DNA from: Deinococcales bacterium
GTDB taxonomy: Bacteria; Deinococcota; Deinococci; Deinococcales; Deinococcaceae
NCBI GenBank assembly: GCA_014378225.1
Contig: JACMOA010000097.1
Coordinates: forward strand, 1 to 11,778
Direction: 5' to 3'
DNA: 11,778 nucleotides
Under the pieces are notes generated by a model. That model was not told the origin of the DNA. It did not search any database and saw only the letters and a list, made by a program, of their open reading frames with translations. A program made the translations under genes and the position numbers. Position 1 is the first letter of the stretch; each line of letters begins with the position of its first letter. Of this stretch, positions 1 to 11,778 are shown piece by piece.

Positions 1-1513
1 AGCCCGCGAAGCGCCGGGAATGTGTTACCGCCTGTGGAGCGAACGGACTCACGGGCTGTTGGCACAGCGCCGCTTGCCAGAGATTCTCGAGGCGGACCTC
101 GCGCCGCTGTGTTTGGAGCTGGCCGGATGGGGCGTAAAACCGGACGCGCTCGAGTGGGTGGATTCGCCGCCTGCCCGTGCAGTGGCAACGGCTCAGGATT
201 TGCTGGAAAAACTGGCGGCGCTCGAGAATGGAAAAATCACGCCCAGAGGCCGCAAAATGCTCGAGCTGCCCACCCATCCCCGGATTTCCCATCTGCTGCT
301 CGAGGGTGTCAGTGCAGGTCTGGGAGCGCTGGCCTGCGATGTGGCGGCGCTGCTCGAGGAGCGTGACCCGCTAGAACGGGGGTCTGGTGCAGATTTGACT
401 GCTCGAGTGGATGCATTGCGAAACTACCGTTTGGGGCGCACCAAAACAAATCTCGAGCGCATTGAGCGGCTTTCCAAACAGTGGCGCAAAACTTTGCGGG
501 TGGAGTTGGAAAATTCCCTGCTCGAGTCCGAGTCTGTGGGTCGTCTGGTGGCGCTGGCCTACCCGGAAAGGGTAGCGCAGCGGCGTGGTAACGACCTCTA
601 CCGCTATAAACTCGCGTCGGGTAAAGGCGTGAAATTGCAGGGGGACGATTCACTGGCTGGAAACGAGTTTCTGGCGGTGGCCCACCTGGATTACGGCGCG
701 GACGAGGGGCGCATTTTTCTGGCCGCTCCGCTTGAGAAGTTTGTGCTCGAGAAATCTGCGCTCGAGGCCCAGTGGGTCGAGGTTTTGAGGTGGGATAAGG
801 CAACTGGAACTTTGAACGCTCGAGAAGACCTTAAATACCTCGAGCTGGTTCTCGAGAGTCGCCCATTGCGTTCAACGTCGCCAGAATCCCGCGCTCGAGT
901 CCTGCTGGACGCGGTGTGCCAGGAGGGTCTGGGGCTGTTCAACTGGACCGATTCTGCACAGGAGTTACGCGCTCGAGTGGGAAGTTTGCACTTGTGGCGG
1001 CCCGAGGATGGCTTTCCAGATTGGTCTGATTCAGGACTTCTAACTACGCTCGAGGAGTGGTTGGGTCCGGCGCTCGAAGGGGTCCGCAAGCGCGAGGATT
1101 TTGCCAAGCTAGATTTGTTTGCCCTGCTCAAGAATCGCTTGCCCTGGAATATGTCCTCCAAGCTCGAGGATTTGGCTCCCACGCATCTTCTCGTTCCTAG
1201 TGGACATAAAGTGCGGCTCGAGTATTCAACGGACGGGGGCGCTCCAGTGTTGGCGGTCAAGCTTCAGGAGATGTTTGGGCAGGCCGAAACGCCCACGGTT
1301 AACGGTGGGCGCACCAAGGTGGTGCTGCATCTGCTTTCTCCAGCGCGGCGGCCCGTGCAGGTGACGCAGGACCTGGGGAGCTTCTGGAACAGCGGATACC
1401 TTCAAATTCGTAAGGAGTTGCGCGGAGATTACCCGCGTCATCCCTGGCCCGAAGACCCCTGGAACGCACCGCCCACTCGAGCGACCACAAGGGGCATGAA
1501 ACGCTCGAGCTGA
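1..1513 (+). CDS. hrpB: ATP-dependent helicase HrpB, C-terminal part (5' truncated by window edge)
   Basis: Open from the left edge (first full codon at base 2) to TGA at 1511-1513, about 503 codons. The true start lies outside the window; the ATG at base 20 is internal. The first visible residues, REAPGMCYRLWSE, match the segment just after helicase motif VI in HrpA/HrpB-type DEAH helicases (family knowledge). Next come the winged-helix and helical-bundle (HA2) region (LELAGWG, then LPTHPRISHLLLEG) and a long HrpB-specific C-terminal region. That region ends in the family signature VQVTQDLGSFWNSGYLQIRK followed by YPRHPWPEDPWNAPPTRA. HrpB proteins are usually around 800-850 residues, so the missing N-terminus should hold the Walker A and DEAH motifs. 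The family is an NTP-dependent helicase of uncertain cellular role. The 161-bp gap downstream suggests it is not in an operon with the next gene. CTCGAG sites are very dense here, about 21 in 1.5 kb. Confidence 0.93.
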   Translation, partial: AREAPGMCYRLWSERTHGLLAQRRLPEILEADLAPLCLELAGWGVKPDALEWVDSPPARAVATAQDLLEKLAALENGKITPRGRKMLELPTHPRISHLLLEGVSAGLGALACDVAALLEERDPLERGSGADLTARVDALRNYRLGRTKTNLERIERLSKQWRKTLRVELENSLLESESVGRLVALAYPERVAQRRGNDLYRYKLASGKGVKLQGDDSLAGNEFLAVAHLDYGADEGRIFLAAPLEKFVLEKSALEAQWVEVLRWDKATGTLNAREDLKYLELVLESRPLRSTSPESRARVLLDAVCQEGLGLFNWTDSAQELRARVGSLHLWRPEDGFPDWSDSGLLTTLEEWLGPALEGVRKREDFAKLDLFALLKNRLPWNMSSKLEDLAPTHLLVPSGHKVRLEYSTDGGAPVLAVKLQEMFGQAETPTVNGGRTKVVLHLLSPARRPVQVTQDLGSFWNSGYLQIRKELRGDYPRHPWPEDPWNAPPTRATTRGMKRSS

Positions 1514-1525
1514 TAAATAGAAGTC

Positions 1526-1542
1526 AGCGATTAGCGATTAGC
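1526..1542. repeat. Heptamer tandem repeat AGCGATT x2 plus AGC after the hrpB stop
   Basis: AGCGATT occurs twice in tandem, followed by a partial third unit, beginning 12 bases after the hrpB stop codon. The 7-bp period resembles the short tandemly repeated repetitive sequences known from intergenic regions of some bacteria. The rest of the 1514-1674 gap holds two CTCGAG sites, a short TTTTCTTAAAA inverted repeat without a GC stem, and the presumed promoter of the next gene. I see no convincing terminator. Confidence 0.5.
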
Positions 1543-1661
1543 CGTTTTCTTAAAAGTGTGATTCATCTAAAGGCTCGAGATTAAACATGAGTAGTTCAGT
1601 CAGAATTTCAAAGGTGCCTGTTACCATATTCAGCGTTCAGCCCGCACTCAACTGGATTCCC

Positions 1662-1667
1662 TACACT
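1662..1667 (+). promoter_or_regulatory. Candidate -10 box (TACACT) for a leaderless vanW-family transcript
   Basis: TACACT fits the TANNNT -10 pattern and ends 7 nt before the ATG at 1675, so transcription could begin at or next to the start codon. No Shine-Dalgarno sequence precedes that ATG, and leaderless translation would explain this. I see no good -35 box at 16-18 bp. The last two bases of the box belong to a CTCGAG at 1666-1671, which lies between the box and the start codon. Confidence 0.35.
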
Positions 1668-1674
1668 CGAGCCG

Positions 1675-2925
1675 ATGAAACACGCTCTTCTCATTTCTAT
1701 CTTATTATCGGCTTCCGTTTTTGCGGTGGCTCAGACTTCTCCCTCGAGCGCCAAGAATGAAAAACCTAACTCGAGCAAACCGGACAAACCCAAAGATTTG
1801 CCCAAAAAGTCCGCGAAACCCCAGGTTTTGAAACTCAAACTGGTCACGTCCGAGCAAAGAATCAAGGGTGGAAAGCTCGAGACCCTGACCCTGGCGGGAA
1901 GTTATCCGTTGCCTAAAAACGCGCTCGAGCGCAGCCGCAAATATGGCAAGATTTCCAGCACCCTGAACCCCGAACTCGAGAAGTTGTTTGCCCGACTGAG
2001 CGCAAGGCAGCCGCGCAGTGCGTACTTTTCTAACGTGGGGGGAAACTGGATTGCACGTCAGCAAACCGGGTGGAAGGTAAACGCCCAAAAAACCCGAGAA
2101 AATCTGCTCGAGGCGCTCAAAAATGGGGAGGGTGAGGCCAGAATCGTGCTCGAGCTTACGCCGCCCCAGCGCAGCGTGAAAGACTTTTTTGAGCGCGGAA
2201 TCCGCTTTCACTTTGGCGGCGACCAGTCCAGCTTTGGCGGAAGCCCCACCTTTCGGGTCAAGAACATTCTGGTGGGCGCAAACAAGATTGACCAGCGTTA
2301 TGTAGAAGCCGGAGAAGAGTTCGATTTTGGCGCTTACGTGGGCGATATTGATAAGAAAAACGGCTTCGTGAAGGGCTTCATCATCAGCGGTGGAACCCTC
2401 TCGCTCGAGGACGGCGGTGGCATCTGTCAGGTCAGCACCACCATTTTCCGCGCCGCCTACGCGGCTGGACTGCCCATCACCGAGCGCCACCAGCACTCGC
2501 ATGTGGTGCATTACTATGACCCAGTGGGACTCGAGGCCACGGTGTACACGCCGGAAAAGAACTTCAAATTCAAAAACGACACCGCCAAGGCGCTGTTTAT
2601 TCAGGCCGATTACAACGTGGGGAATCAGACCCTACGCTTCGATTTGTTCGGGGTCAAGCCAGACCGCCAGGTGACGGTTTCCAAGCCCGCGCTGAGCAAC
2701 TACAAAGCCGCTGCCAAACCCAGTTACAGCCCTGACCCCAAGATGGCTCTGGGCCGCTCGAGGCAGATTGACGTGGCCGAGCGCGGCGTGACCGCCGTCA
2801 TCAGCCGCCGGGTGAAGTTGGCGGATGGCAAGATTCGCAAGGACAGCACCAGGTCGGTTTATAAGCCCTGGGGCGCGGTTTATGCGGTGAATCCGGGGGA
2901 CGCTCGAGTGAAGGGTAATGAGTGA
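1675..2925 (+). CDS. Secreted VanW-family protein
   Basis: 416 residues. Residues 1-19 form a signal peptide: MKH, then a hydrophobic core, then FAVA before Q20, a plausible signal peptidase I site. Residues 20-50 are a Lys/Pro/Ser-rich linker, typical of an exported protein that passes through or contacts the envelope. The region at about 165-330 is the VanW domain. Its hallmark GGGICQVSTT is at 247-256 (Cys251), followed by AAGLPITERHQHS at about 262-275 and the GLEATVY segment. VanW-family proteins were named from a vancomycin-resistance accessory gene. Their biochemical function is unknown, though a cell-envelope or peptidoglycan role is usually inferred. This gene alone does not indicate glycopeptide resistance; no vanHAX or vanRS-like genes are nearby. 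The ATG start is supported by the signal peptide. It lacks a Shine-Dalgarno and may be translated from a leaderless mRNA. It converges with the Hpt gene downstream, with 38 bp between stops. Confidence 0.88.
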   Translation: MKHALLISILLSASVFAVAQTSPSSAKNEKPNSSKPDKPKDLPKKSAKPQVLKLKLVTSEQRIKGGKLETLTLAGSYPLPKNALERSRKYGKISSTLNPELEKLFARLSARQPRSAYFSNVGGNWIARQQTGWKVNAQKTRENLLEALKNGEGEARIVLELTPPQRSVKDFFERGIRFHFGGDQSSFGGSPTFRVKNILVGANKIDQRYVEAGEEFDFGAYVGDIDKKNGFVKGFIISGGTLSLEDGGGICQVSTTIFRAAYAAGLPITERHQHSHVVHYYDPVGLEATVYTPEKNFKFKNDTAKALFIQADYNVGNQTLRFDLFGVKPDRQVTVSKPALSNYKAAAKPSYSPDPKMALGRSRQIDVAERGVTAVISRRVKLADGKIRKDSTRSVYKPWGAVYAVNPGDARVKGNE

Positions 2926-2943
2926 TGAGTAGTGAGTAATGAG
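2916..2943. repeat. Four tandem stop-codon heptamers (TRRTGAG) spanning the VanW stop
   Basis: Four contiguous 7-bp units read TAATGAG, TGATGAG, TAGTGAG, TAATGAG. Each begins with a different or repeated stop codon (TAA, TGA, TAG, TAA). Because 7 is not a multiple of 3, the array places stops in all three forward frames. The true stop of the VanW-family gene is the TGA at 2923-2925, so the last codons of the gene lie in the array. It sits between two convergent genes where no hairpin terminator is visible. Confidence 0.6.
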
Positions 2944-2963
2944 CTAAGACAGGGAAAGGGTTT

Positions 2964-3710
2964 TCAGGTTTGCTCGAGGGCCAACTCCTCCGTCCAGGGG
3001 CGCTTGATGAGGAGTTGAGCGTTTGGGGGAACTTCCGTCTGCTCGAGGGCCGTGACCCACAGATTTTTGAGGTCTGGGTAGCGCTCGAGCAAATTTTGTG
3101 GCCCTATTCCACCCGGTTCGTTGGGGCAGAGCACTCGAGCAAAAATAGTGTGCTCGAGCTGTTCCAGTGCTTCTGTAAGGGTGTCACACTCCAGCACTTC
3201 AAACCCCTGGCGCTCGAGCTGATTTTTGAGGGTCCAGCGGGCGGTATTGGACGGCTCGAGCAGTAAAACAGCGCTGGACTCGAGCGGTTGACTCGGAGAT
3301 TGCGTGGATTTTACTTCACGAGGTCCTGGCTTTTCTCGGGGCCACGCGGCTAAACGCTCGAGCAAGTCCTCGAGTTCAGGGGTGGGGTTTTTGAGTTGAA
3401 GTTCGCCCTCTATCAGACCCTGCAAAGCGTCCAGGGTTTCAAACAGCAGTGCAGTGGTGTACGGCTCGAGCGGCTCAACCCCGTCTCGCAACGCGCCTAG
3501 AACGTCCTCGAGCGCGTGGGTAAGCGCCTTGATGACGCCCAGTGAGAGCATACTGGCCCCGCCCTTGATGGTGTGTGCCGACAAAAACATCTGCCGCAGC
3601 ACGGCGGCGTCCATCCCTTCCCGCTCGAGTTTGAGCAGGCTACTGCCCAGTAAATCAAGGTGTTCACCCGCCTCGAGCTGAAATTCCTGCAAAAATTGGG
3701 TGATATCCAC
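2964..3710 (-). CDS. Hpt domain protein with a degenerate receiver-like domain
   Basis: 248 residues from a GTG start (complement of 3708-3710). Residues 1-105 are a histidine phosphotransfer domain like the P1 domain of CheA: FLQEFQLEAGEHLDLL near the start, then the phospho-site motif SAHTIKGGASML with His46. About 40 residues of charged, Pro/Ser-rich linker follow. Residues 146-245 have the length and strand pattern of a CheY-like receiver (AVLLLEPSNTAR, GFEVLECDTLTEALEQLE, then LWVTAL, then LLIKRPW). The paired acidic residues are replaced by Glu152-Pro153, and the phospho-acceptor position in VLCPNEPGG is Cys195. The conserved Thr (T220) and Lys (K236) positions are retained. It is therefore probably a pseudo-receiver used for protein contact. 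There are no kinase, dimerisation or CheW-like domains, so this is not CheA; it may act as a separate P1-like phosphate carrier. It is divergent from the cheW-cheR pair. Confidence 0.85.
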   Translation of the reverse strand: MDITQFLQEFQLEAGEHLDLLGSSLLKLEREGMDAAVLRQMFLSAHTIKGGASMLSLGVIKALTHALEDVLGALRDGVEPLEPYTTALLFETLDALQGLIEGELQLKNPTPELEDLLERLAAWPREKPGPREVKSTQSPSQPLESSAVLLLEPSNTARWTLKNQLERQGFEVLECDTLTEALEQLEHTIFARVLCPNEPGGIGPQNLLERYPDLKNLWVTALEQTEVPPNAQLLIKRPWTEELALEQT

Positions 3711-3714
3711 TTTG

Positions 3715-3721
3715 CCCCCTC
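3715..3721 (-). promoter_or_regulatory. Ribosome-binding site of the Hpt gene, merged with a CTCGAG site
   Basis: On the minus strand the sequence reads CTCGAGGGGGCAAAGTG. GAGGGGG is a strong Shine-Dalgarno element four bases before the GTG and supports that start. Its GAG is the second half of a CTCGAG palindrome at 3719-3724. A possible -10 box for this gene, TAAGAT on the minus strand (complement of 3736-3741), lies about 25 bp upstream of the GTG without a clear -35. Confidence 0.5.
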
Positions 3722-3761
3722 GAGCGCTTTCTCAAATCTTAATCAGGTCTTCATCCTAAGC

Positions 3762-3767
3762 TATAGT
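3762..3767 (+). promoter_or_regulatory. Candidate -10 box (TATAGT) for a leaderless cheW-cheR transcript
   Basis: TATAGT matches five of six bases of TATAAT and ends 9 nt before the cheW ATG at 3777. This spacing places the transcription start at or next to the A of the start codon, and there is no Shine-Dalgarno between. A weak -35 candidate TTAATC (3739-3744) lies 17 bp upstream and overlaps the possible -10 box of the divergent Hpt gene, so the two promoters may compete. Confidence 0.45.
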
Positions 3768-3776
3768 GGCATCCGA

Positions 3777-4226
3777 ATGGGCAACCCCGCACAGGCCAAC
3801 CCCGCACATTTTACCCAGGCGCTCAGAATTCTGCTGGGTGAGCGCCACTATGCCCTGCGCTCGAGCGAGGTGGGGAGGGTGCTGCCGATGTGCGCCTGGA
3901 CCCCACTTTATAGTCCTGAAGGGCCACTGGCGCTGCTCGAGGTGGCGGGAATCCTGCTTCCAGTGGTGGACCCCCGGCCCTGGCTGGGTCTGGCTGCTGC
4001 GGAGATTAAACCTGAGCAACACCTTTTGCTGGTTCAAACAACGCCCGCTTTTGTGTTGTGGGTGGACCAGGTGGAAGAGGTGTTTGAAGTCTCGAGCGAA
4101 CAGATTCAGCGGCTCGAGGTATTTGAGGGCAGCCCAGTGCGGTTTTTGGTGCGGCACCGGGCTGAAACCCTACCCCTGCTCGAGTGCGCCTACTTTTCGC
4201 CGGGAGAGTTCGTGCGCTCCGTATGA
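3777..4226 (+). CDS. cheW: CheW-like chemotaxis coupling protein
   Basis: 149 residues from the ATG at 3777, close to the usual CheW length of about 150-165. I chose this start over an upstream in-frame GTG at 3660 because the longer form would run through the divergent Hpt gene and its promoter, and the CheW fold is complete without it. The domain pattern is clear: ALRILLGERHYALRSSEVGRVLP at the start of the first sub-domain, then GILLPVVDPRPWLGL, then HLLLVQTTPAFVLWVDQVEEVFEV. CheW proteins are cytoplasmic SH3-like scaffolds that link chemoreceptors to the CheA kinase (family knowledge). Neither partner is in this window. The stop codon TGA overlaps the ATG of the CheR gene (ATGA), so the two are probably translationally coupled and transcribed together. 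Confidence 0.88.
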   Translation: MGNPAQANPAHFTQALRILLGERHYALRSSEVGRVLPMCAWTPLYSPEGPLALLEVAGILLPVVDPRPWLGLAAAEIKPEQHLLLVQTTPAFVLWVDQVEEVFEVSSEQIQRLEVFEGSPVRFLVRHRAETLPLLECAYFSPGEFVRSV

Positions 4227-5566
4227 GTTCTGCGTCCTGGCTTCCGGCGCTCCTGCGCCTGCTCGAGCGCCGCACGGGTTTGGTGCTCAGGGAGCGTAAC
4301 GCCACCTTGCTCGAGGGGGCCTTTGTGCGTCTGGCAGCAGAGCGTGGACAAGGGTTCGGCGAAGTATTGGACAATGCGGCACGTCTTGGCGAGAACGGCA
4401 CCTATCGGGCCTCGCCGCCTATCGGGCCTGTCCGCCTGCTCGAGTTCCTGAGGACCCATCCTCAAGATAAAAAATGGGCTGCACTGCTCGAGGCCGCTGT
4501 GGTGCCTGGAGCCCACTTTTACCGGGTTTTACCGCAAATGCTGGCCCTGCAAGCAAACATTTTGCCGGAATTGCTGAGCCGCACGGCTGGGCCACCCCGT
4601 TTGTGGTCGGCGGGCTGCTCGAGCGGTGAAGAAGTCTATACGCTGGCCTTCTTGCTCGAGGAGTGTGCTGTGCAACTTGGCTTAATGACTGGGGTCCAAA
4701 ACAGTTCGGTGCTGGGAACCGACCTCAGCCCACACGCGCTGGCGCTGGCCCGTGTGGGGCGCTACGGCACATGGTCTTTCCGGGGTACGCCGCTGGCGTG
4801 GCAAAGTCGCTATTTTCGGGCGCTCGAGGGAAATCCCATTACGGGGCCGCAGTGGGAAGTGCTGGGTCAGGTTCGCAATCAGGTTAAGTTCGAGCTTTAT
4901 AACCTGGTGGAGCCTCCCTCGGGCGCACTCCTCGAGCAAAAAGGCCAGTACGACCTCATCTTGTGCCGCAATGTGACGATTTACTTTCGCCCGGAAGTGG
5001 CCCAGGCGGTGTACCGACATCTGGCTTCGCGCTTGAGTCCGGGCGGGTATTTGATGCTGGGTCCGTCGGACCCTCCGCCCATCGCGCTGGAAGGACTCGA
5101 GCAGAAATCCGCACCCGGTGCGTTATACTGGCAAAAACCGCTCAAACCTTTAAAGCTCGAGCCTTTAAAGAAAGTTAAACCTCCCCTTCCCTTAACTCCG
5201 AAGGTGGTTAGCCCGATTCCTTTCCGCCCTTCTTTACCTCAACCCGAACGCACCTCACCACCTTCTTCCAAGGACGTTACCTCACCCCTCGAGCGGGGTC
5301 TGGAACGGCTGGAAAGGGGAGACGCTTCAGGCGCACTCGAGCCATTGCGTCAGGCGGCGTATCTGGACTCTCAGGACGCTTTTGTGCATTTTACGCTGGG
5401 CCGGGTATGGCTGGCCCTGGGCCGGGTGGCCCAGGCCAGAGCCGCCCTGCTTTACGCGCAGAGTTTGTTGGCCGTATTTCCCCCAGAAACTCCGCTGAAT
5501 TCTGCCCCAGAATTGACCGCCCTGGATTTGCGTCACGCCCTCGAGCGCCTGCTTCTGAAGGTTTAG
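4223..5566 (+). CDS. cheR: CheR-type receptor methyltransferase with C-terminal TPR-like region
   Basis: 447 residues from the ATG at 4223, which overlaps the cheW stop. A longer GTG start at 4184 would add 13 residues inside cheW and is less likely. Residues 1-90 are the helical CheR N-domain (LLERRTGLVLRERNATLLEG). Residues 95-300 are the SAM-dependent methyltransferase: GCSSGEEVYTLAFLLEE (131-147) for SAM binding, GTDLSPHALALARVGRY (165-181), and LCRNVTIYF (247-255) followed by LSPGGYLMLGPSD. Residues 305-350 are a Pro/Lys-rich linker, and 355-447 hold TPR-like helices (FVHFTLGRVWLALGRVAQAR). CheR methylates glutamates on chemoreceptors. Forms with a TPR tail are known in alternative chemosensory systems such as the Frz type. 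Where CheR usually has TxFFR, this protein reads AHFYR (97-101): the Arg is kept but the Thr appears to be Ala. Because CheB-CheR fusion gene 7 carries a second CheR, substrates may be divided. Confidence 0.9.
   Translation: MSSASWLPALLRLLERRTGLVLRERNATLLEGAFVRLAAERGQGFGEVLDNAARLGENGTYRASPPIGPVRLLEFLRTHPQDKKWAALLEAAVVPGAHFYRVLPQMLALQANILPELLSRTAGPPRLWSAGCSSGEEVYTLAFLLEECAVQLGLMTGVQNSSVLGTDLSPHALALARVGRYGTWSFRGTPLAWQSRYFRALEGNPITGPQWEVLGQVRNQVKFELYNLVEPPSGALLEQKGQYDLILCRNVTIYFRPEVAQAVYRHLASRLSPGGYLMLGPSDPPPIALEGLEQKSAPGALYWQKPLKPLKLEPLKKVKPPLPLTPKVVSPIPFRPSLPQPERTSPPSSKDVTSPLERGLERLERGDASGALEPLRQAAYLDSQDAFVHFTLGRVWLALGRVAQARAALLYAQSLLAVFPPETPLNSAPELTALDLRHALERLLLKV
4401..4429. repeat. 12-bp direct repeat inside the CheR N-domain
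   Basis: CCTATCGGGCCT occurs at 4401-4412 and again at 4418-4429 with a 5-bp spacer. The 17-bp offset is not a multiple of three, so the copies are read in different frames (within TYRASPPIGPV). It lies in a variable loop of the CheR N-domain. It could be a small duplication or chance. Confidence 0.4.
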
Positions 5567-5641
5567 CCCGCTCGAGTTTCTTACTGAATTAGGGTGCGTT
5601 TAGGCAACATGAAAGGAAATCTTCGAGCCATTCAACAAACA

Positions 5642-5689
5642 TCGGTCTCGCTAAACCGACCCGTTTAGGCTAGTCTGGAACCAGTTCCA
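5642..5689. promoter_or_regulatory. Overlapping inverted repeats upstream of the oxidoreductase: candidate operator
   Basis: Three short inverted repeats are packed in 48 bp: TCGGT/ACCGA (5642-5646, 5655-5659), CTAAAC/GTTTAG (5651-5656, 5663-5668) and TGGAAC-CA-GTTCCA (5676-5689). The 9-mer CGTTTAGGC at 5662-5670 also occurs in direct orientation at 5597-5605. The cluster lies 33-80 bp before the start codon, where a transcription factor site would be expected. The AAACCGACCCGTTT core looks loosely like LacI-family operators, but no regulator gene is adjacent. The rest of the 155-bp gap (5567-5721) holds two CTCGAG sites and no terminator hairpin that I can support. Confidence 0.4.
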
Positions 5690-5721
5690 AATATTCGCTT
5701 TACAGGCTCGAGGGTTTAAAC

Positions 5722-6771
5722 ATGTCCAATTCATCCACATCCACGTCTTCCCCCTTTCGCGCTGGTCTGGTCGGCGCAGGTGGCATTGCCACCACCCACT
5801 TTAAGGGTTACATCAAAGCGGGCGCTCTGGTGATGGGCTTTGCCGAACCGTTCGAGTCCACCCGCATCCTGCGTGAGAAAGAGTGGGGCGTCAAAGGGTA
5901 CAGCTCACTCGACGAGATGCTCGAGGCCCCTTCCCTTGAGAGCGGCCAGCTCGAGGCGGTTTCTATCTGTACGCCTAACGCCTTTCACTTTGAGAGTACC
6001 CTGAAAGCTGCCAGGGCCGGAAAGCACATTCTGTGCGAGAAACCACTCAGCATGTCGCTCGAGGAGTGCGCCGAGATGATTAGGGTGTGCCAGGAGTCTG
6101 GCGTAGTGCTGCAAACCAACCATCATTTGCGCTCTAATTTATTGGTCCAGGCCGCCAAAAAGTTGATTGATTCCGGGGCTATTGGCGATGTGAGCTTTGT
6201 GCGCTTGCGGCAGGCCCACGATTGGGGCGGCAGCAAAACGGTGCGCCCTTCGTTTGGGCTGTTCCAGAATTCTGGCGGGGGAACCCTGCTGGATAACGGC
6301 TGTCACATGATGGACTTGGCCCGCTACTTCTGCGGAGAGGTGGGCAGCTTGTACGCCCGCACGGCCAGTTTGCGCCCCGACATTGAGGTGGAGGATGTGG
6401 GCCTGGTTTCGCTCGAGTTCAAAAACGGGGCCATTGGCAGCGTGGAAGCGTCCTGGAACGCCACCGGCTGGGAAGAGGGGTTCTGGGTGTACGGCACGGA
6501 TGGAGCGCTCGAGTGTACCAATAGATTAGGCAAACGGGTCCTAAAGCACGTTCACCGCTCGAGCGGGGGCGGCTGGGAAGAGGTGGACGTGACTGTTCAC
6601 GACTTTAACGAAGAAGGCGGACACCCGCTGGCTGTTCAGAATTTTATTCGGAGTGTGCGTGAGGGAACGCCCGTAATCTGCACCGGGCAAGATGGCCTCG
6701 AGAGCGTGCGGCTGGTGTTGGCAGCCTATGAAAGTGCAAGAGAGAACAGGGCGCTCGAGATTACAACATGA
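5722..6771 (+). CDS. Gfo/Idh/MocA-family NAD(P)-dependent oxidoreductase
   Basis: 349 residues, a normal length for the family. The N-terminal Rossmann fold has the dinucleotide motif GLVGAGGIA (GxGxxA, residues 15-23) after a short Ser/Thr-rich leader. The family catalytic motif EKP is at 106-108 (HILCEKPLSMSLEEC). The C-terminal alpha/beta domain carries GGGTLLDNGCHMMDLARYF (185-203), in which Asp191 and His195 match the conserved D-x-x-x-H. Members oxidise or reduce sugars, inositols and related polyols, or act on glycosides; the substrate cannot be told from sequence alone. No transporter or sugar-catabolic gene is adjacent. The start is supported by GAGGG at 5710-5714, seven bases upstream, fused to a CTCGAG and followed by the palindrome GTTTAAAC. 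It sits between two chemosensory genes but has its own upstream region with inverted repeats, so it is probably a separate unit. Confidence 0.92.
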   Translation: MSNSSTSTSSPFRAGLVGAGGIATTHFKGYIKAGALVMGFAEPFESTRILREKEWGVKGYSSLDEMLEAPSLESGQLEAVSICTPNAFHFESTLKAARAGKHILCEKPLSMSLEECAEMIRVCQESGVVLQTNHHLRSNLLVQAAKKLIDSGAIGDVSFVRLRQAHDWGGSKTVRPSFGLFQNSGGGTLLDNGCHMMDLARYFCGEVGSLYARTASLRPDIEVEDVGLVSLEFKNGAIGSVEASWNATGWEEGFWVYGTDGALECTNRLGKRVLKHVHRSSGGGWEEVDVTVHDFNEEGGHPLAVQNFIRSVREGTPVICTGQDGLESVRLVLAAYESARENRALEITT

Positions 6772-6881
6772 AATGAATGTTGAAGAAATAAGGATTCAGC
6801 TCATAATCAGTCAAGAAGGGTGATTTGGGAGTATCTTCGGGTTATGTATTCATTAAAGCGGTGGAATGGTCAACTCCTCCT

Positions 6882-6886
6882 GAGGA
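6882..6886 (+). promoter_or_regulatory. Ribosome-binding site of the CheB/CheR fusion gene
   Basis: GAGGA lies nine bases before the ATG at 6896 and supports that start. Unlike those of the Hpt and oxidoreductase genes, it is not fused to a CTCGAG. The 124-bp gap upstream (6772-6895) is AT-rich, contains no CTCGAG, and probably carries the promoter, but I see no clear -35/-10 pair. Confidence 0.55.
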
Positions 6887-6895
6887 CTTAAAGCC

Positions 6896-9800
6896 ATGTC
6901 CACAGACGCGAACTTAGGTCCACTGGACCCTCAGGCGGATGTGCGCCCAGACAGCCACTTGGAAGCCAGCGGCGGCGCTCAAGTGGGTGAAAAACAATAC
7001 GAGAAGCACGGCTTTTTTCTGGTGGGTGTGGGTGCGTCTGCGGGTGGTGTAGCCGCCTGCAAAAGCTTTTTTGCAAACGTCAGGCCAGGTTCCGGCATGG
7101 CTTATGTGGTGGTGATGCACCTCTCCGAAGACCACGAAAGTCATCTGGCCGAGATTTTGCAAAACGTCACCGCCCTGCCGGTGCTTCAGGTGGGGGGAAC
7201 CGTGAGGGTTGAGCCTGACCACGTTTACGTGATTCCCCCCAGCAATTATCTGGTGATGGACGACGGACACATCCGCCTGACCGAACCCCAGCGGGTGCGG
7301 GGCCAGCGCCTACAGATTGACCTGTTTTTTCGCACCCTGGCCGAAGCCTACGGCCCCGAGGCGGTGGCGGTGGTGCTGTCCGGCAGCGGCAGCGACGGCA
7401 CCCTGGGAATGCAGCGGGTCAAGGAAAACGGCGGCTTTACGGTGGTGCAAGACCCCGCTGAGGCCGAGTACGACGCCATGCCGCGCAGCGCCCTCAAAAC
7501 TGGACTGATTGATTTGGTGCTGCCCGTGGCCCAGATTCCAGGCAAGCTCGAGCGGGTCCTGAAGCGGTCCTCACAGCTCGAGGAGATGGTGGTTCCAGAA
7601 AGCCTGGACACCCTGGAACCCTCAGAACCTGCCTGGGAGGAATTCCAATCTTATGATGCGGACGACGCCGAGCGCGGAGAAATGGGGTTGCTTCAGGTTT
7701 TGAAGCTGGTGCGGGAGCGCACCGGACACGATTTCAGCTTTTACAAACGCCCCACCCTGGGGCGGCGCATCGCCCGCCGCTTGCAGGTTCACGAACTACC
7801 GGACCTGCACGCCTACCTCGAGCTGCTCAGGTCTGACCCCGAGGAAATGAACCCGCTGTTGCAAGACCTGCTCATCACCGTCACCAACTTCTTCCGCGAC
7901 CTCGAAGCGTTTGCAATTCTCGAGAACGAGGTGATTCCAGAGCTTTTTGTCGGCAAAACGTCCGAGGACAGCGTGCGGGTGTGGGTGGCGGGCTGCGCCA
8001 GTGGCGAGGAAGCTTACTCGGTGGGAATGCTGCTGCTCGAGGCGGCGCAAAAGTTGCCCGACCCGCCCAAACTGCAAATTTTTGCCAGCGACATCAACGA
8101 AGCGGCCCTGAGATTTGCTCGAACAGGCCGCTACGACGAGGCAGCGCACATAGACGTGTCCCCAGAGCGCCTGGAGCGTTTTTTCGTGCGCGAGGGCAAC
8201 TCCTACCGGGTCAAAAAAGAGCTGCGCGATTTGGTGCTGTTTGTGCCACACAACCTGCTGCGCGACCCGCCGTTTTCCAAACTGAATCTGGTGACGTGCC
8301 GCAACCTGCTCATCTACCTGAACCGCCCCACCCAGGAACGGGTGCTCAAGCTGTTTCACTTTGCGCTGATGGACCAGAGTTTTTTGTTTCTCGGCTCGAG
8401 CGAATCTTCTGAGGGTAGCTTGGCACTGTTTAGCCCGCTCAGCAAAAAGTGGCGCATTCTACGCGCCCTGCCCGCCGCGTCCAGAGATATTTACAGCGCC
8501 CCCACCCTGCCGGAGTCGGGATTCTGGCGCAGAGGGGTCAACTCCACCCCTGCTCGGTCGAGCGAGGGTAGCCCCCCCATCCTGCGCCCAGAGCGCAACC
8601 GTCGGGCGCTTTTTGGCGAACTCCACTATCAACTGGTGGAACAGTTGGCTCCGCCGTCTATTTTAACCAATGAAAATTTCGAGATTTTGCACTCGAGCGA
8701 AAACGCGGTGCGCTTTCTGAGGGTTCCGGGCGGAGACCCCAGTTTGAGCCTGCTCAAGCTGGCCCTGCCCGGTCTGGCGCTGGATTTACGGGCGGCGCTC
8801 TCCAGCGCGGACCTGGAAAATCGTCCCACCGAGGCGCGGCATGTGAGTGTAGACCTCGAGGGCGGGGAGCGCTTCGTGAACCTGACCGTGCGCCCTACCC
8901 TGAGCGGGGGCAGCCGTTACTTTCTGGTGGTCTTCGGTGAAAAGCCGCTCGGGGGGGCTGCTTCGGGCAGCGAGTCGGGCGATGGCTCGAGTAATGGCTC
9001 GGGCGATGGCTCAAGTAATGGCTCAGGCAATGGCTCAGGCAATGGCTCGAGTAATGGCTCGAGTAATGGCTCAGGCGGTAGGCCGATAGAGATTCAGTCG
9101 GTGTCCGAAGCGCTGCGGGCGGACCGGGCCATCGAGAGTGTGGTGCAGCGGCTCGAGACCGAAAGCCAGGACGCCAGGGACCAACTGCACATACTTGAAG
9201 AGCAGTTTGAAGCCTCGAACGAGGAACTCAAAGTCTCCAACGAGGAACTGCAAGCGCTGGTAGAGGAGTTGCGCTCGGCCAGTGAAGAACTCGAGACCGG
9301 CAAAGAAGAGTCTCAGTCGCTCAACGAGGAACTCAGCACCGTTAACGGGGAACTCAAAGAAAAGATGGACGAAGCGGTGACGGTCAACAACGACCTGAAA
9401 AACCTGATGTCCTCCACTGACCTGAGCATCATCTTTCTGGACACTCAACTCAGAATCAAACGGTTCACCCCCAGGGCGCTGGACGTGTTCAAGCTTATTG
9501 AAGCCGACGTGGGCAGGCCGCTGGCCGACCTGAGCCACACCCTGGACTACGACGCACTGCTGGACGACGCGACCCAGGTGCTCAGCACCCGCCAGCCGCT
9601 CACCCGCGAGGTCAGCGCCCCCATTGCTGGAAGCGTGAGCGGCAACACGTATATGGCGCGGCTCACCCCTTACCGCACCCTGGATGGGGTGGTGGATGGG
9701 GTGGTGCTGTCTTTTATAGACATCAGCGAAACCAAAGCCACCGTGGCGCTGCATCAGTCCGAGGCGCACCTGCGGGCCATCATCGGTCAGGCCACGGCGG

Positions 9801-11341
9801 GCATCGCCCAGATGAATGAGGACGGCGTGTTCACGCTGGTCAACGCCCGCTACACCGATTTGACCGGGTTTAGTGAGGCCCAACTGTTGGGGCGCACCCT
9901 GCTCGGGCTGACCCACCCCGACGATGTGGAAGCGCTGCAAGGCCACCTGACGGGGCTGCTGGACGCTGGACCCCCCTTCACCATGGAACAGCGCTGTCTG
10001 CGCCCCGACGGCTCGAGCGTGTGGCTCAGCAACAGCGTGTCCCTGGTGTCAGACCCGGCTGGGGGAGGGCGCACCCTGGTGTCCATCTCGATTGACCTCA
10101 CCGAGCGCAAGCAAATCGAGGCGGCGCTGCTCGAGAGTGACCGCCGCAAAAACGAGTTTCTGGCTACGCTGTCGCACGAACTCCGCAATCCGCTCAACGC
10201 GCTGCGCTCCAATTTAGAGGTCATGCGCCGCCTGAATAGCGTGGAGGAGCTGCAAGCCGCCAGAGAGCAGGTGGAGCAGCCGCTCGAGATGATGCGCCGC
10301 CTGGTGGACGACCTGATGGACGTGACCCGCATCTCGCAGGGTAAACTGCGGCTGCAACTGGCTCCGCTCGAGCTTTCCAAGGTCCTGAACGCCTCAGTGG
10401 ACGCGCTGCGCTCGAAGTTTCAGGAACGTGACATTGAACTGAAGGTCCATCTGTTCGAGCCACCCAGCACCGGAAGGGACAGGGTTCAGGATGACAGGGT
10501 TCAGGGCGATATGGTACGGCTCGAGCAGGTGTTCATCAACTTGCTGAGCAACGCGGTCAAGTTCAGCACACCGGGAAGTCGGGTCTGGCTCTCGGCAGAG
10601 TGTACCGGAGCAGAGGTGCGGGTACGGGTGCGCGACGAAGGAATCGGCCTGTCCAAACTCGATGCGGGTCGGGTGTTTGAGCTGTTCGCCCAGGTTCCGG
10701 CCACCCCTGGTCAATCCCAGGAAGGCTTGGGCATCGGGCTTTATCTGGTGCGCCAGATTGTGGAACTGCACCGGGGCTGGGTAGAAGTGAGCAGCGCCGG
10801 ACCCGGCCAGGGCTGCGAATTCACGGTTTGCCTGCCGCTGATTGAAACCCCAGCTCTTGAAACCCCACTCCTTGAAACCCCACCCCTTGAAACCCTTCTG
10901 AAAGCGTCCCCCGTGTCAGCGTCCCCCGTGTCAGGGGCAAACTCTGGAGAGGTCCCGCTCGAGCCTGAAAAGGCGCACGCACGCATCTTGCTGGCCGACG
11001 ACTACGAACCCGCCCGCAAAGCCATTGCCAGACTTATTCGCTTCATGGGCTTCGAGGTGATGACGGCGGTGGACGGGGTAAACGCGCTCGAGGTGGCGGT
11101 GCAGTTCCAGCCCACTTTGATGCTCATTGACATCAACATGCCGCGCATGAACGGGTATGAAGTGGTCCGCGCCCTGAGGGCGATGCCCGAGTTTGCCCAC
11201 ACCAAACTGGTGGCGCTCACCGGCTACGGACAGCCCGAGGACGTTCGGCAATCTCTGGAGGCGGGCTTCGATTTGCACATTGTCAAACCCCTGAATGCGG
11301 ACACGCTCGAGCGCTTGTTGGCAGAGCAGAGGGTTTCCTGA
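6896..11341 (+). CDS. CheB-CheR-PAS-PAS-histidine kinase-receiver fusion protein
   Basis: 1481 residues, no signal peptide or membrane segment, so cytoplasmic. Domains in order: a 40-residue leader; CheB methylesterase at 41-215 with Ser48 (GVGASAGG), His75 (VVVMHLSEDH) and Asp167 (SGSGSDGTLG) as the likely catalytic triad; CheR methyltransferase at about 262-525 with TNFFRD (330-335), GCASGEEAYS (366-375) and CRNLLIYL (468-475); a possible PAS-like segment at 575-680; an Asn/Gly/Ser repeat linker at 690-728; a Glu-rich coiled coil at 735-838; PAS at 840-945; PAS at 953-1070; HisKA with phospho-His1094 (LSHELRNPL); HATPase_c with N-box NLLSNAVKFS (1215-1224), DEGIG (1247-1251) and GLGIGL (1277-1282); a short-repeat linker at 1316-1350; and a receiver at 1362-1478 with Asp1368/Asp1369, phospho-Asp1412, Thr1442 and Lys1464. 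All catalytic residues are present. CheB/CheR/PAS kinase fusions are a known architecture. There is no receiver before CheB, so its control must differ from that of ordinary CheB. CTCGAG density is less than half that of the rest of the window. Confidence 0.95.
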   Translation: MSTDANLGPLDPQADVRPDSHLEASGGAQVGEKQYEKHGFFLVGVGASAGGVAACKSFFANVRPGSGMAYVVVMHLSEDHESHLAEILQNVTALPVLQVGGTVRVEPDHVYVIPPSNYLVMDDGHIRLTEPQRVRGQRLQIDLFFRTLAEAYGPEAVAVVLSGSGSDGTLGMQRVKENGGFTVVQDPAEAEYDAMPRSALKTGLIDLVLPVAQIPGKLERVLKRSSQLEEMVVPESLDTLEPSEPAWEEFQSYDADDAERGEMGLLQVLKLVRERTGHDFSFYKRPTLGRRIARRLQVHELPDLHAYLELLRSDPEEMNPLLQDLLITVTNFFRDLEAFAILENEVIPELFVGKTSEDSVRVWVAGCASGEEAYSVGMLLLEAAQKLPDPPKLQIFASDINEAALRFARTGRYDEAAHIDVSPERLERFFVREGNSYRVKKELRDLVLFVPHNLLRDPPFSKLNLVTCRNLLIYLNRPTQERVLKLFHFALMDQSFLFLGSSESSEGSLALFSPLSKKWRILRALPAASRDIYSAPTLPESGFWRRGVNSTPARSSEGSPPILRPERNRRALFGELHYQLVEQLAPPSILTNENFEILHSSENAVRFLRVPGGDPSLSLLKLALPGLALDLRAALSSADLENRPTEARHVSVDLEGGERFVNLTVRPTLSGGSRYFLVVFGEKPLGGAASGSESGDGSSNGSGDGSSNGSGNGSGNGSSNGSSNGSGGRPIEIQSVSEALRADRAIESVVQRLETESQDARDQLHILEEQFEASNEELKVSNEELQALVEELRSASEELETGKEESQSLNEELSTVNGELKEKMDEAVTVNNDLKNLMSSTDLSIIFLDTQLRIKRFTPRALDVFKLIEADVGRPLADLSHTLDYDALLDDATQVLSTRQPLTREVSAPIAGSVSGNTYMARLTPYRTLDGVVDGVVLSFIDISETKATVALHQSEAHLRAIIGQATAGIAQMNEDGVFTLVNARYTDLTGFSEAQLLGRTLLGLTHPDDVEALQGHLTGLLDAGPPFTMEQRCLRPDGSSVWLSNSVSLVSDPAGGGRTLVSISIDLTERKQIEAALLESDRRKNEFLATLSHELRNPLNALRSNLEVMRRLNSVEELQAAREQVEQPLEMMRRLVDDLMDVTRISQGKLRLQLAPLELSKVLNASVDALRSKFQERDIELKVHLFEPPSTGRDRVQDDRVQGDMVRLEQVFINLLSNAVKFSTPGSRVWLSAECTGAEVRVRVRDEGIGLSKLDAGRVFELFAQVPATPGQSQEGLGIGLYLVRQIVELHRGWVEVSSAGPGQGCEFTVCLPLIETPALETPLLETPPLETLLKASPVSASPVSGANSGEVPLEPEKAHARILLADDYEPARKAIARLIRFMGFEVMTAVDGVNALEVAVQFQPTLMLIDINMPRMNGYEVVRALRAMPEFAHTKLVALTGYGQPEDVRQSLEAGFDLHIVKPLNADTLERLLAEQRVS
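8982..9077 (+). repeat. Eight tandem 12-bp units encoding an Asn/Asp-Gly-Ser linker
   Basis: Eight uninterrupted copies of ATGGCTCRRGYR. In frame they encode the tetrapeptide [D/N]-G-S-[S/G] at residues 696-727 of the fusion protein. Three units contain CTCGAG; the others carry CTCAAG, CTCGGG or CTCAGG at the same position. The array separates the CheB-CheR half from the coiled coil and kinase half. Whole-unit gain or loss would keep the reading frame and only change linker length. Confidence 0.9.
9682..9705 (+). repeat. Exact 12-bp tandem duplication (DGVVDGVV) in the first PAS domain
   Basis: GGATGGGGTGGT occurs twice in direct succession, encoding a duplicated Asp-Gly-Val-Val at residues 930-937. 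It precedes the last strand of the PAS domain (LSFIDIS). The copies are identical, which suggests a recent slippage event. Confidence 0.7.
10478..10507 (+). repeat. 15-bp tandem duplication before the kinase N-box
   Basis: GACAGGGTTCAGG followed by AT in the first copy and GC in the second, in tandem at 10478-10492 and 10493-10507. It encodes Asp-Arg-Val-Gln-Asp then Asp-Arg-Val-Gln-Gly (residues 1195-1204). It lengthens the loop that leads into the HATPase N-box helix. Confidence 0.65.
10841..10900 (+). repeat. Four 15-bp units encoding an ETP linker between kinase and receiver
   Basis: Units of YTTGAAACCCCANYY-like sequence, the last one diverged, encode IETPA, LETPL, LETPP and LETLL (residues 1316-1335). 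They start right after the last strand of the HATPase domain (VCLPL) and make up the first half of the linker to the receiver. Confidence 0.75.
10904..10933 (+). repeat. Exact 15-bp tandem duplication (ASPVS x2) in the kinase-receiver linker
   Basis: GCGTCCCCCGTGTCA occurs twice without any difference, encoding Ala-Ser-Pro-Val-Ser twice (residues 1337-1346). It follows the ETP repeats almost directly but is unrelated to them in sequence. Confidence 0.75.
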
Positions 11342-11390
11342 AGTGCTGCCCTTACGGACCACAAATCTCTAATTGCCCAACAACCCTAGA

Positions 11391-11778
11391 TTAACCCAGC
11401 TTCATGGTTCGCCTCAAGGCGATGCTGTGCAGTAAGCGCTGGAGGGTATGCTTTTGCTCCACCAGGGCGACCAGGGCTTCCTCGTTCGAAACCAGCCGCA
11501 GAGAAACGGCTGTTCCGGGAGGGAGAACCGCCACGCGAGGCAGGTCTACTGCCGCTATAATCAGCACTCGAGGGTAGCCCCCCACCGTTCCCGCGTCCTG
11601 AAGCAGCACGATGGGCTGTCCACCGGGGGGTAGTTGCACCACTCCAGGCAGCACCGCTCCAGAGCGCATCTGAAACGACCTGTTATGCTCGAGCGCCCCA
11701 CCGTCCAGACGCAGGCCCATACGGTTGGACTGCATGGAAACCCGGAAAACCATTTGCTCGAGGCTGAGCTGGGCGGCG
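11391..11778 (-). CDS. pxpC: PxpC/KipA-type biotin-dependent carboxyltransferase-like subunit, C-terminal part (5' truncated)
   Basis: The minus-strand frame is open from the right edge to TAA (complement of 11391-11393), about 128 codons. The ATG at 11751-11753 is not the true start: the frame continues upstream as AAQLSLEQ, and the next residues (VFRVSMQSNRMGLRL) are internal to the family. Diagnostic motifs are SNRMGLRLDGGALEH, then PGVVQLPPGGQPIVLLQDAG, then TVGGYPRVLIIAAVDLPR. These match the C-terminal half of the AHS2/carboxyltransferase domain found in KipA, PxpC (5-oxoprolinase subunit C) and urea carboxylase. In bacteria this gene is usually next to pxpB and pxpA, whose products together hydrolyse 5-oxoproline to glutamate with ATP; those genes would lie beyond the window. 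It converges with the fusion gene. The 49 bp between their stops contain no visible hairpin. KipA-like regulatory homologues cannot be excluded. Confidence 0.85.
   Translation of the reverse strand, partial: AAQLSLEQMVFRVSMQSNRMGLRLDGGALEHNRSFQMRSGAVLPGVVQLPPGGQPIVLLQDAGTVGGYPRVLIIAAVDLPRVAVLPPGTAVSLRLVSNEEALVALVEQKHTLQRLLHSIALRRTMKLG

Follow-up and report, generated by a model that had tools for sequence, protein, structure and literature searches.

A lineage-bound excess of the palindrome CTCGAG in genomes of Deinococcota: a HIP-like word in another phylum

The contig and its CTCGAG copies

The window analysed here is a stretch of 11,778 nucleotides that makes up one whole contig (C349) of the assembly of a Deinococcales bacterium (GCA_014378225.1, G000 below), and it carries the palindromic hexamer CTCGAG 101 times. 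Base composition predicts 3.7 copies and a first-order Markov model 4.0; in 200 Markov simulations the mean was 3.8 and the maximum 10. The 18 one-mismatch variants of the word add up to 57 occurrences, each being found 0 to 7 times. A first-pass annotation of the same letters had reported about 100 copies between positions 86 and 11,762, at 25 to 35 times the expected number, and the recount agrees with the number, the limits and the size of the excess; the observation as a whole proved larger than reported there.

The genes of the window (Table 1) are ordinary and none encodes a DNA methyltransferase. All eight open reading frames (ORFs) examined contain the word, and four copies lie outside them. 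By frame the site-in-ORF counts are 75, 8 and 15 (98 counts, one site being in two overlapping ORFs). The word was also said to be present in every gene, in all three frames and between genes; this is correct, with frame 0 (Leu-Glu) dominating.

Table 1. Features of the window, with their CTCGAG sites
Feature	Positions	Strand	CTCGAG sites	Basis
CTCGAG array, mean spacing about 117 bp, last copy 11757-11762	86..11762	.	101	counts
HrpB-type helicase, C-terminal part	2..1513	+	21 (frames 15/5/1)	Pfam PF08482
Intergenic copies (1574, 1666)	1574..1671	.	2	counts
VanW-like protein	1675..2925	+	11 (frames 7/1/3)	Pfam PF04294
Hpt-domain protein	2964..3710	-	14 in 747 bp (18.7 per kb, highest density of the 8 ORFs)	Pfam PF01627
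CheW-like protein	3660..4226	+	7	Pfam PF01584
CheR methyltransferase (acts on protein, not DNA)	4184..5566	+	13	Pfam PF01739
Intergenic copies (5571, 5707)	5571..5712	.	2	counts
GFO/IDH/MocA oxidoreductase	5722..6771	+	8	Pfam PF01408, PF22725
CheB-CheR-PAS-histidine kinase-receiver fusion	6896..11341	+	21 (4.7 per kb, lowest density of the 8 ORFs)	Pfam
Carboxyltransferase-domain protein, end only	11391..11777	-	3	Pfam PF02626

The fusion protein has 1481 amino acids (aa) and a Gly/Ser/Asn-rich linker.

Genome-wide excess and action on DNA

The assembly G000 has 1.94 Mb in 396 contigs and is 58.9% complete, so that an absence from it says little. It holds 14,690 copies of CTCGAG, one per 132 bp, against 2 of the reversed word GAGCTC. 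In a sample of 162,628 bp (31 of the 396 contigs, the window included) there are 1280 copies, far above the 27.7 expected at first order and the 16.1 at second order with the word masked. In the first 62,142 bp of this sample the 18 one-mismatch hexamers total 265, against 328 expected. The extremes among them are CTCGTG, which is depleted (5 against 17), and CTTGAG, which is raised (33 against 21). The relatives are thus not enriched as a group, which excludes local composition; base composition as the cause was rejected by the window, Markov, one-mismatch and masked-sample counts alike.

The word was then counted in 111 genomes of the class; the per-Mb figures carry no correction for GC content, which varies among the genomes. 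Related named records belong to Deinococcota. Family f1 includes G000 to G003, with G000 and G002 in genus g1, and family f2 comprises G004 to G007; genus g13 we take to be Thermus, and g10 to g12 the Meiothermus group. CTCGAG occurs 7,585 times per Mb in G000, 6,248 in G002 and 5,904-6,457 in the four f2 genomes, while GAGCTC stays at about 1-7 per Mb in both groups. The other f1 genomes have 3,566 (G001) and 297 (G003). Medians per Mb are 2,554 in g10 (n=2), 3,223 in g11 (n=2) and 2,127 in g12 (n=18, range 1,387-3,072). In g13 (n=27) the median is 825 and the ratio of CTCGAG to GAGCTC 0.7-1.8; in family f5 (n=39) this ratio is 1.2-15.9, with a median of 2.0. The masked first-order excess is 46- to 90-fold in G000, G002, G004, G005 and G006 (46-fold in G000 itself), 25-fold in G007, 15-fold in G033 and 10-fold in G001. 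The excess is therefore lineage-bound: extreme in g1 and f2, strong in g10 to g12, lost in G003 and absent in g13. A second word, AGCGCT, is mildly over-represented in samples of G000, G002, G004-G007 and G033 (123 against 38.9 in G000, 118 against 46.7 in G004), and its extension GAGCGCTC is 8.3-fold over expectation in G000 and 4.2-fold in f2.

A bias of codons or proteins alone, with CTC-GAG as a preferred codon pair, would agree with the 75 of 98 site-in-ORF counts in frame 0 of the window. ORFs were called mechanically, greedily and largely without overlap, with a minimum of 120 aa for the densities of G000 and of the nine genomes sampled and for dipeptides, 100 aa for the window sites, the flanks and the densities of f2, G033 and pMESIL01, and 90 aa for phage dipeptides. 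The density of the word is 7.85 per kb inside and 8.00 per kb outside ORFs in G000 and, with slightly different ORF calls, 6.17 and 6.97 in f2 and 2.95 and 3.42 in G033. On the plasmid pMESIL01 of Allomeiothermus silvanus it is 1.58 inside and 2.21 outside. In eight of the nine genomes sampled, all except G001, sites are at least as dense outside ORFs as inside. Leu-Glu is 2.51 times as frequent as expected in G000 and 2.18-2.95 times in G002 and G004-G007. The reverse dipeptide Glu-Leu is not raised (0.90 times expectation in G000, 0.90-1.16 across the motif-rich genomes G000, G002 and G004-G007), GAGCTC is nearly absent, and in G003, which loses the motif, Leu-Glu stands at 1.10. CTC-GAG encodes 688 of the 835 Leu-Glu pairs of G000, where CTCGAG also encloses a large share of the CGA codons (149 of 333) and of the TCG codons (229 of 515). 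The densities, dipeptides and codon counts refute an origin in codons or proteins, to which we give practically no weight, and support the annotation's statement that selection on these cannot explain the word. The force acts on DNA and reshapes proteins.

Conservation, flanks and mobile elements

Conservation was followed in non-overlapping high-scoring segment pairs of at least 150 bp, the rest being discarded. Between G004 and G005 (19.4 kb, 76% identity), 75 of the 112 sites in G004 are kept, compared with 24% for other hexamers and 21% for composition-matched words (Fisher p ~3e-22, with sites treated as independent). Cross-genus comparisons gave 12/22, 18/36, 32/51, 21/54 and 10/42, against controls of 11-17%. 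Where a site has changed between G004 and G005, the partner is a one-mismatch word in 16 of 76 cases, compared with 42% for composition-matched words (p = 0.0002), and three further genome pairs show the same deficit (3/25, 6/30, 6/42). The difference lies at an outer position in 32 of 66 one-mismatch partners, where an even distribution would give 22; these come from six pairs that share genomes and are not independent. One-mismatch words near their expected number fit an equilibrium under a bias on the intact word. Conversion of one precursor by a Vsr-type activity was rejected, as CTTGAG and CTCAAG are not depleted (in 62 kb of G000 they total 65, where 42 are expected). A 37-bp element of G004 (L024:10738-10774) has many places about 85-98% identical to it in G005-G007, and looks like a dispersed repeat.

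The flanks of the hexamer differ among lineages. In G000 GCTCGAGC is 118-fold over expectation and CCTCGAGG 3.6-fold; in G001, of the same family, CCTCGAGG is 62-fold over and GCTCGAGC 3.4-fold. In the f2 genomes three flanks are 48- to 53-fold over expectation and CCTCGAGG is 18-fold over, and G033 shows 30-fold for CCTCGAGG and 21-fold for GCTCGAGC. Outside ORFs the left G is found in 0.52 of 388 flanks in G000, against a background of 0.25; in f2 there is almost no preference there. Since the preference is kept in intergenic DNA, it is not a codon effect. A shared core with lineage-specific flanks may reflect a recognition protein that evolves. G001 was first read as a plain decaying relic, and this was revised since most of its excess sits in CCTCGAGG (185 against 3.0 expected); its low intergenic density stays, and a weakened maintenance of the motif is possible.

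The spacing of the word is near random (coefficient of variation, CV, 0.97 against 0.97 expected in G000; 1.01 in G004). G006 shows a slight regularity (0.89 against 0.97) and G001 a clustering of sites (1.14 against 0.98). Pairs less than 15 bp apart are scarce in G000 (25 against 99 expected), G004 (32 against 68) and G006 (18 against 38), with no such deficit in G001. No strong 10.5-bp phasing was seen. The pairwise distances in G000 and G006 may contain a weak periodic component of about 20-21 bp, or about two helical turns.

Phages and a plasmid extend the comparison beyond chromosomes. The Meiothermus phages MMP17 and MMP7 carry 87 and 90 copies against about 9 expected, and the word ranks first of 55 palindromes; they are 99.8% identical over 23 kb and count as one lineage. 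An IMG/VR relative (major head protein 93% identical) has 44 copies against 3.5. The Thermus phage Riverbug, with a terminase 66% identical to that of MMP17, has 23 against 16.2 (1.4-fold), and in the Thermus phages P23-45 and phiFa, where about 19 copies are expected in the first 50 kb of each, there are 6 and 17. Two IMG/VR relatives at a greater distance, whose hosts are unknown, carry 4 copies (4.9 expected) and 15 (10.1 expected). Of 22 MMP17 sites aligned with Riverbug, 2 hold the word in both phages, and at 3 further sites it is found in Riverbug only. Leu-Glu stands at 1.63 times expectation in MMP17 and 1.07 in Riverbug. The 150 kb of pMESIL01 hold 247 copies where 47 are expected, which places the word first of 64 palindromes; eight transposase or integrase genes of this plasmid have none in 8,929 bp (p ~8e-5 with one copy per protein, 5.7 kb). 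The phage and transposase contrasts show that the excess tracks the host; it probably also tracks time of residence.

This bears on two roles for the word. If an abundant nucleoid or segregation protein bound CTCGAG, the genome-wide spread would be explained, and so would the few close pairs in G000, G004 and G006, which resemble a footprint. The spacing is otherwise near random, however, G001 has no short-range deficit, and the phage lineage and the plasmid share the excess. The architectural protein proposed in the first-pass annotation is thus disfavoured as sole cause, and we consider a role in chromosome architecture improbable. Still less credible is a Chi-like or DNA-uptake role, in which a recombination nuclease or a competence receptor would read the word. 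Chi-type words can be favoured in phages too, but PF12705, which we take to be the nuclease domain of AddAB and RecB, has no match in G004, G005 and G007, only weak ones in G002 and G006, and good ones in G001 and G003. A Chi read by an AddAB/RecB nuclease was rejected on its lack of detection in three of the four f2 genomes, and an uptake sequence on the 9- to 10-fold excess in MMP17 and MMP7, which does not fit such a role. The contrast between Meiothermus and Thermus phages indicates that the host background matters and that architecture or DNA uptake alone is insufficient. In G001, the genome with the CCTCGAGG flanks, two long ORFs of 900 and 1202 aa (C14:31063-35090) each have a PDDEXK_1 match, the two lying next to each other, and are presumably AddAB-like.

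The putative reader and comparison with known systems

Profile searches covered the 111 genomes; the per-genome counts are complete, and individual loci named below are among the matches listed. Matches were found to PF00145 in 29 genomes, PF07669 in 81, PF01555 in 78, PF02086 in 49, PF02384 in 82, PF04555 in 4 and PF12705 in 106. No methyltransferase ortholog that follows the motif was found in five Pfam families over these genomes. D12-class enzymes are the best correlate at family level, with matches in G002, in the whole of f2 (four genomes) and in each of the 22 genomes of g10 to g12, and none in G003. They are absent in G001 and present in 13 of the 27 g13 genomes (five strongly), and the proteins split into unlike groups. 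C5 enzymes match in G001, G002 and G004-G007, which are all six motif-rich genomes of good completeness, and not in G003; in g10 to g12 just 11 of 22 genomes have one. For G002 and G004-G007 the clustering took in the hits to PF01555 and PF02086 and most of those to PF00145; it also used a minority of the PF07669 hits and none of PF02384. Among the enzymes clustered, no group of orthologs with 38% identity or more extended over all four genomes of f2. G002, G004 and G005 share one C5 group, and single linkage at 30% unites nothing but the C5 superfamily in its entirety. Two enzymes are near-core in the Meiothermus group, one (A1) with strong matches in 14 of the 18 genomes of g12 and 9 of the 39 of f5, the other (A2) in 21 of the 22 genomes of g10 to g12 plus G046. 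In f1 and f2 they match distantly or not at all. NCBIfam, applied to nine proteins, yielded no sequence specificity. Different enzymes with equal specificity may serve different lineages.

An XhoI-type endonuclease (PF04555) was found in G012, G013, G014 and, with in-frame stops, in G108, and in none of the f1, f2 and g10 to g12 genomes. The broken gene of G108 (C1, about 1094000-1096200; L139, L140) adjoins a methyltransferase gene. A protein 49% identical to this methyltransferase is present in G024, with no PF04555 among the matches listed. The idea that acquisition of XhoI lowered the motif in G012-G014 was dropped, GAGCTC being lower there too. In MMP17 (L242:26062-27388) a gene annotated as a very-short-patch-repair endonuclease adjoins a D12 adenine methyltransferase gene, and in MMP7 a DUF559 gene adjoins a DNA adenine methylase gene in the same order.

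With moderate confidence we propose that CTCGAG is a word of the HIP1 class, favoured by a host-encoded, trans-acting, sequence-specific activity. This activity, which would reside in a single protein, would recognise the hexamer when intact, with a preference for certain flanking bases in some lineages, in the DNA that stays in the cell, be it chromosome, plasmid or phage. A slight favour per site would lead to the fixation of new sites and keep old ones above mutational drift. If the genomes are near equilibrium, the logarithm of the excess (2.3 to 4.5) would give the scaled selection or fixation bias per site. The favour would come from selection, or from a fixation that is biased, and not from converting a particular precursor into the word, and a bias of repair or fixation is a possible cause. 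Tentatively, a D12-class DNA adenine methyltransferase, or a repair protein coupled to one, can be named as a candidate reader.

A special case of this proposal follows Elhai: an orphan methyltransferase would modify CTCGAG, and mismatch repair directed by the methylation would create and preserve sites. Alternate cyanobacterial HIPs accompany matching methyltransferases (PMC4390886). The distribution of D12 in G002, f2 and g10 to g12 and of C5 in the six motif-rich genomes, with neither in G003, points the same way, as do the gene pair of MMP17 and the G024 protein related to the methyltransferase beside the broken XhoI-type gene. On the other hand, no clustered group spans f2, D12 is missing from G001, present in about half of g13 and divided into unlike groups, and C5 is found in only half of the g10 to g12 genomes. 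The first-pass annotation had named a matching methyltransferase as a candidate cause; the D12 family is a correlate at family level, no ortholog tracking the motif was found in the five families searched, and the model seems to us doubtful.

Several observations weigh against a favoured host-read word. The searches turned up no reader protein. G001 has fewer sites per kb outside ORFs (1.58-1.62) than inside (3.87). Conservation between G006 and G007 is weak (10/42 against 17%), their deficit of one-mismatch partners is slight (18/65 against 36%), and the pair G005-G007 has none (17/52 against 39%). The equilibrium pattern fits selection and biased repair alike, and these data do not distinguish them. 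The phage argument rests on one lineage compared with one related Thermus phage.

Many other palindromes are depleted. In G000, 33 of 63 testable palindromic hexamers reach at most a quarter of their expected number, compared with 70 of 4,032 non-palindromes, and the window is without GAGCTC, GGGCCC, CGGCCG, CAGCTG, GCCGGC, CCCGGG and GATC. The four-base gaps differ by lineage: GATC in G000 (20 against 369), CCGG in G002 (7 against 165) and GGCC in G004 (5 against 845), G005 (3 against 236) and G006 (7 against 371). The ordinary reading of such depletion is heavy exposure to restriction. It may be linked to the excess of CTCGAG, a link that is the basis of the following speculation and not a result. 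CTCGAG could act as a reward tag, or restriction in reverse, the host protecting or favouring DNA in proportion to its intact sites; chromosomes, plasmids and phages would load up with the word in the flank dialect of the host, and most other GC-rich palindromes would be driven towards zero. We regard this reading as rather unlikely.

A DNA signal of six bases is strong enough here to double a dipeptide throughout a proteome. Three natural experiments are at hand: relatives that keep the word, shift its flanks or lose it, phages from two genera, one rich and one poor in the motif, and transposase genes without the word beside resident genes with it. Members of the Meiothermus group are in culture, which opens modification, binding proteins and the fitness of phages to direct measurement and makes the puzzle testable. 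In the open-access literature we found no report of CTCGAG over-representation in this phylum or of a Meiothermus methylome.

Among known systems, XhoI and PaeR7I recognise the same word, CTCGAG. A restriction site is expected to be avoided, whereas CTCGAG is enriched. In Escherichia coli GATC, a palindrome of comparable density (about one per 240 bp), is read by the Dam methyltransferase and by repair proteins. It differs in having four bases and mild enrichment, compared with 25- to 90-fold for CTCGAG, which no Dam-like ortholog was found to follow. Chi and DNA uptake sequences are also short words over-represented throughout genomes, but those we know of are non-palindromic and far less dense.

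The closest likeness is to HIP1, the parallel drawn in the first-pass annotation. HIP1 (GCGATCGC) and the alternate HIPs of cyanobacteria (PMC4390886) are likewise short GC-rich palindromes spread genome-wide and bound to lineages with sporadic loss or replacement, and their role is debated, with a candidate link to methyltransferases. The parallel stands in that CTCGAG is a short palindrome, genome-wide, inside and outside genes, independent of codons, conserved and lineage-bound. It does not extend to HIP1 in the narrow sense of the octamer GCGATCGC, as the core is CTCGAG and CGATCG is depleted in G000 (1 against 23.7). CTCGAG also differs in belonging to another phylum, in having a six-base core with lineage flanks instead of a fixed octamer, in that no methyltransferase ortholog was found following it, and in that phages of a motif-rich genus share the excess. 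It is several times denser than HIP1, whose cause and role stay debated: Elhai's model saturates at about one HIP site per 1000 (Elhai 2015, PMC4390886), while the extreme genomes here have one CTCGAG per about 130-170 bp. In appearance CTCGAG belongs with the HIPs, and in mechanism it probably does so too.

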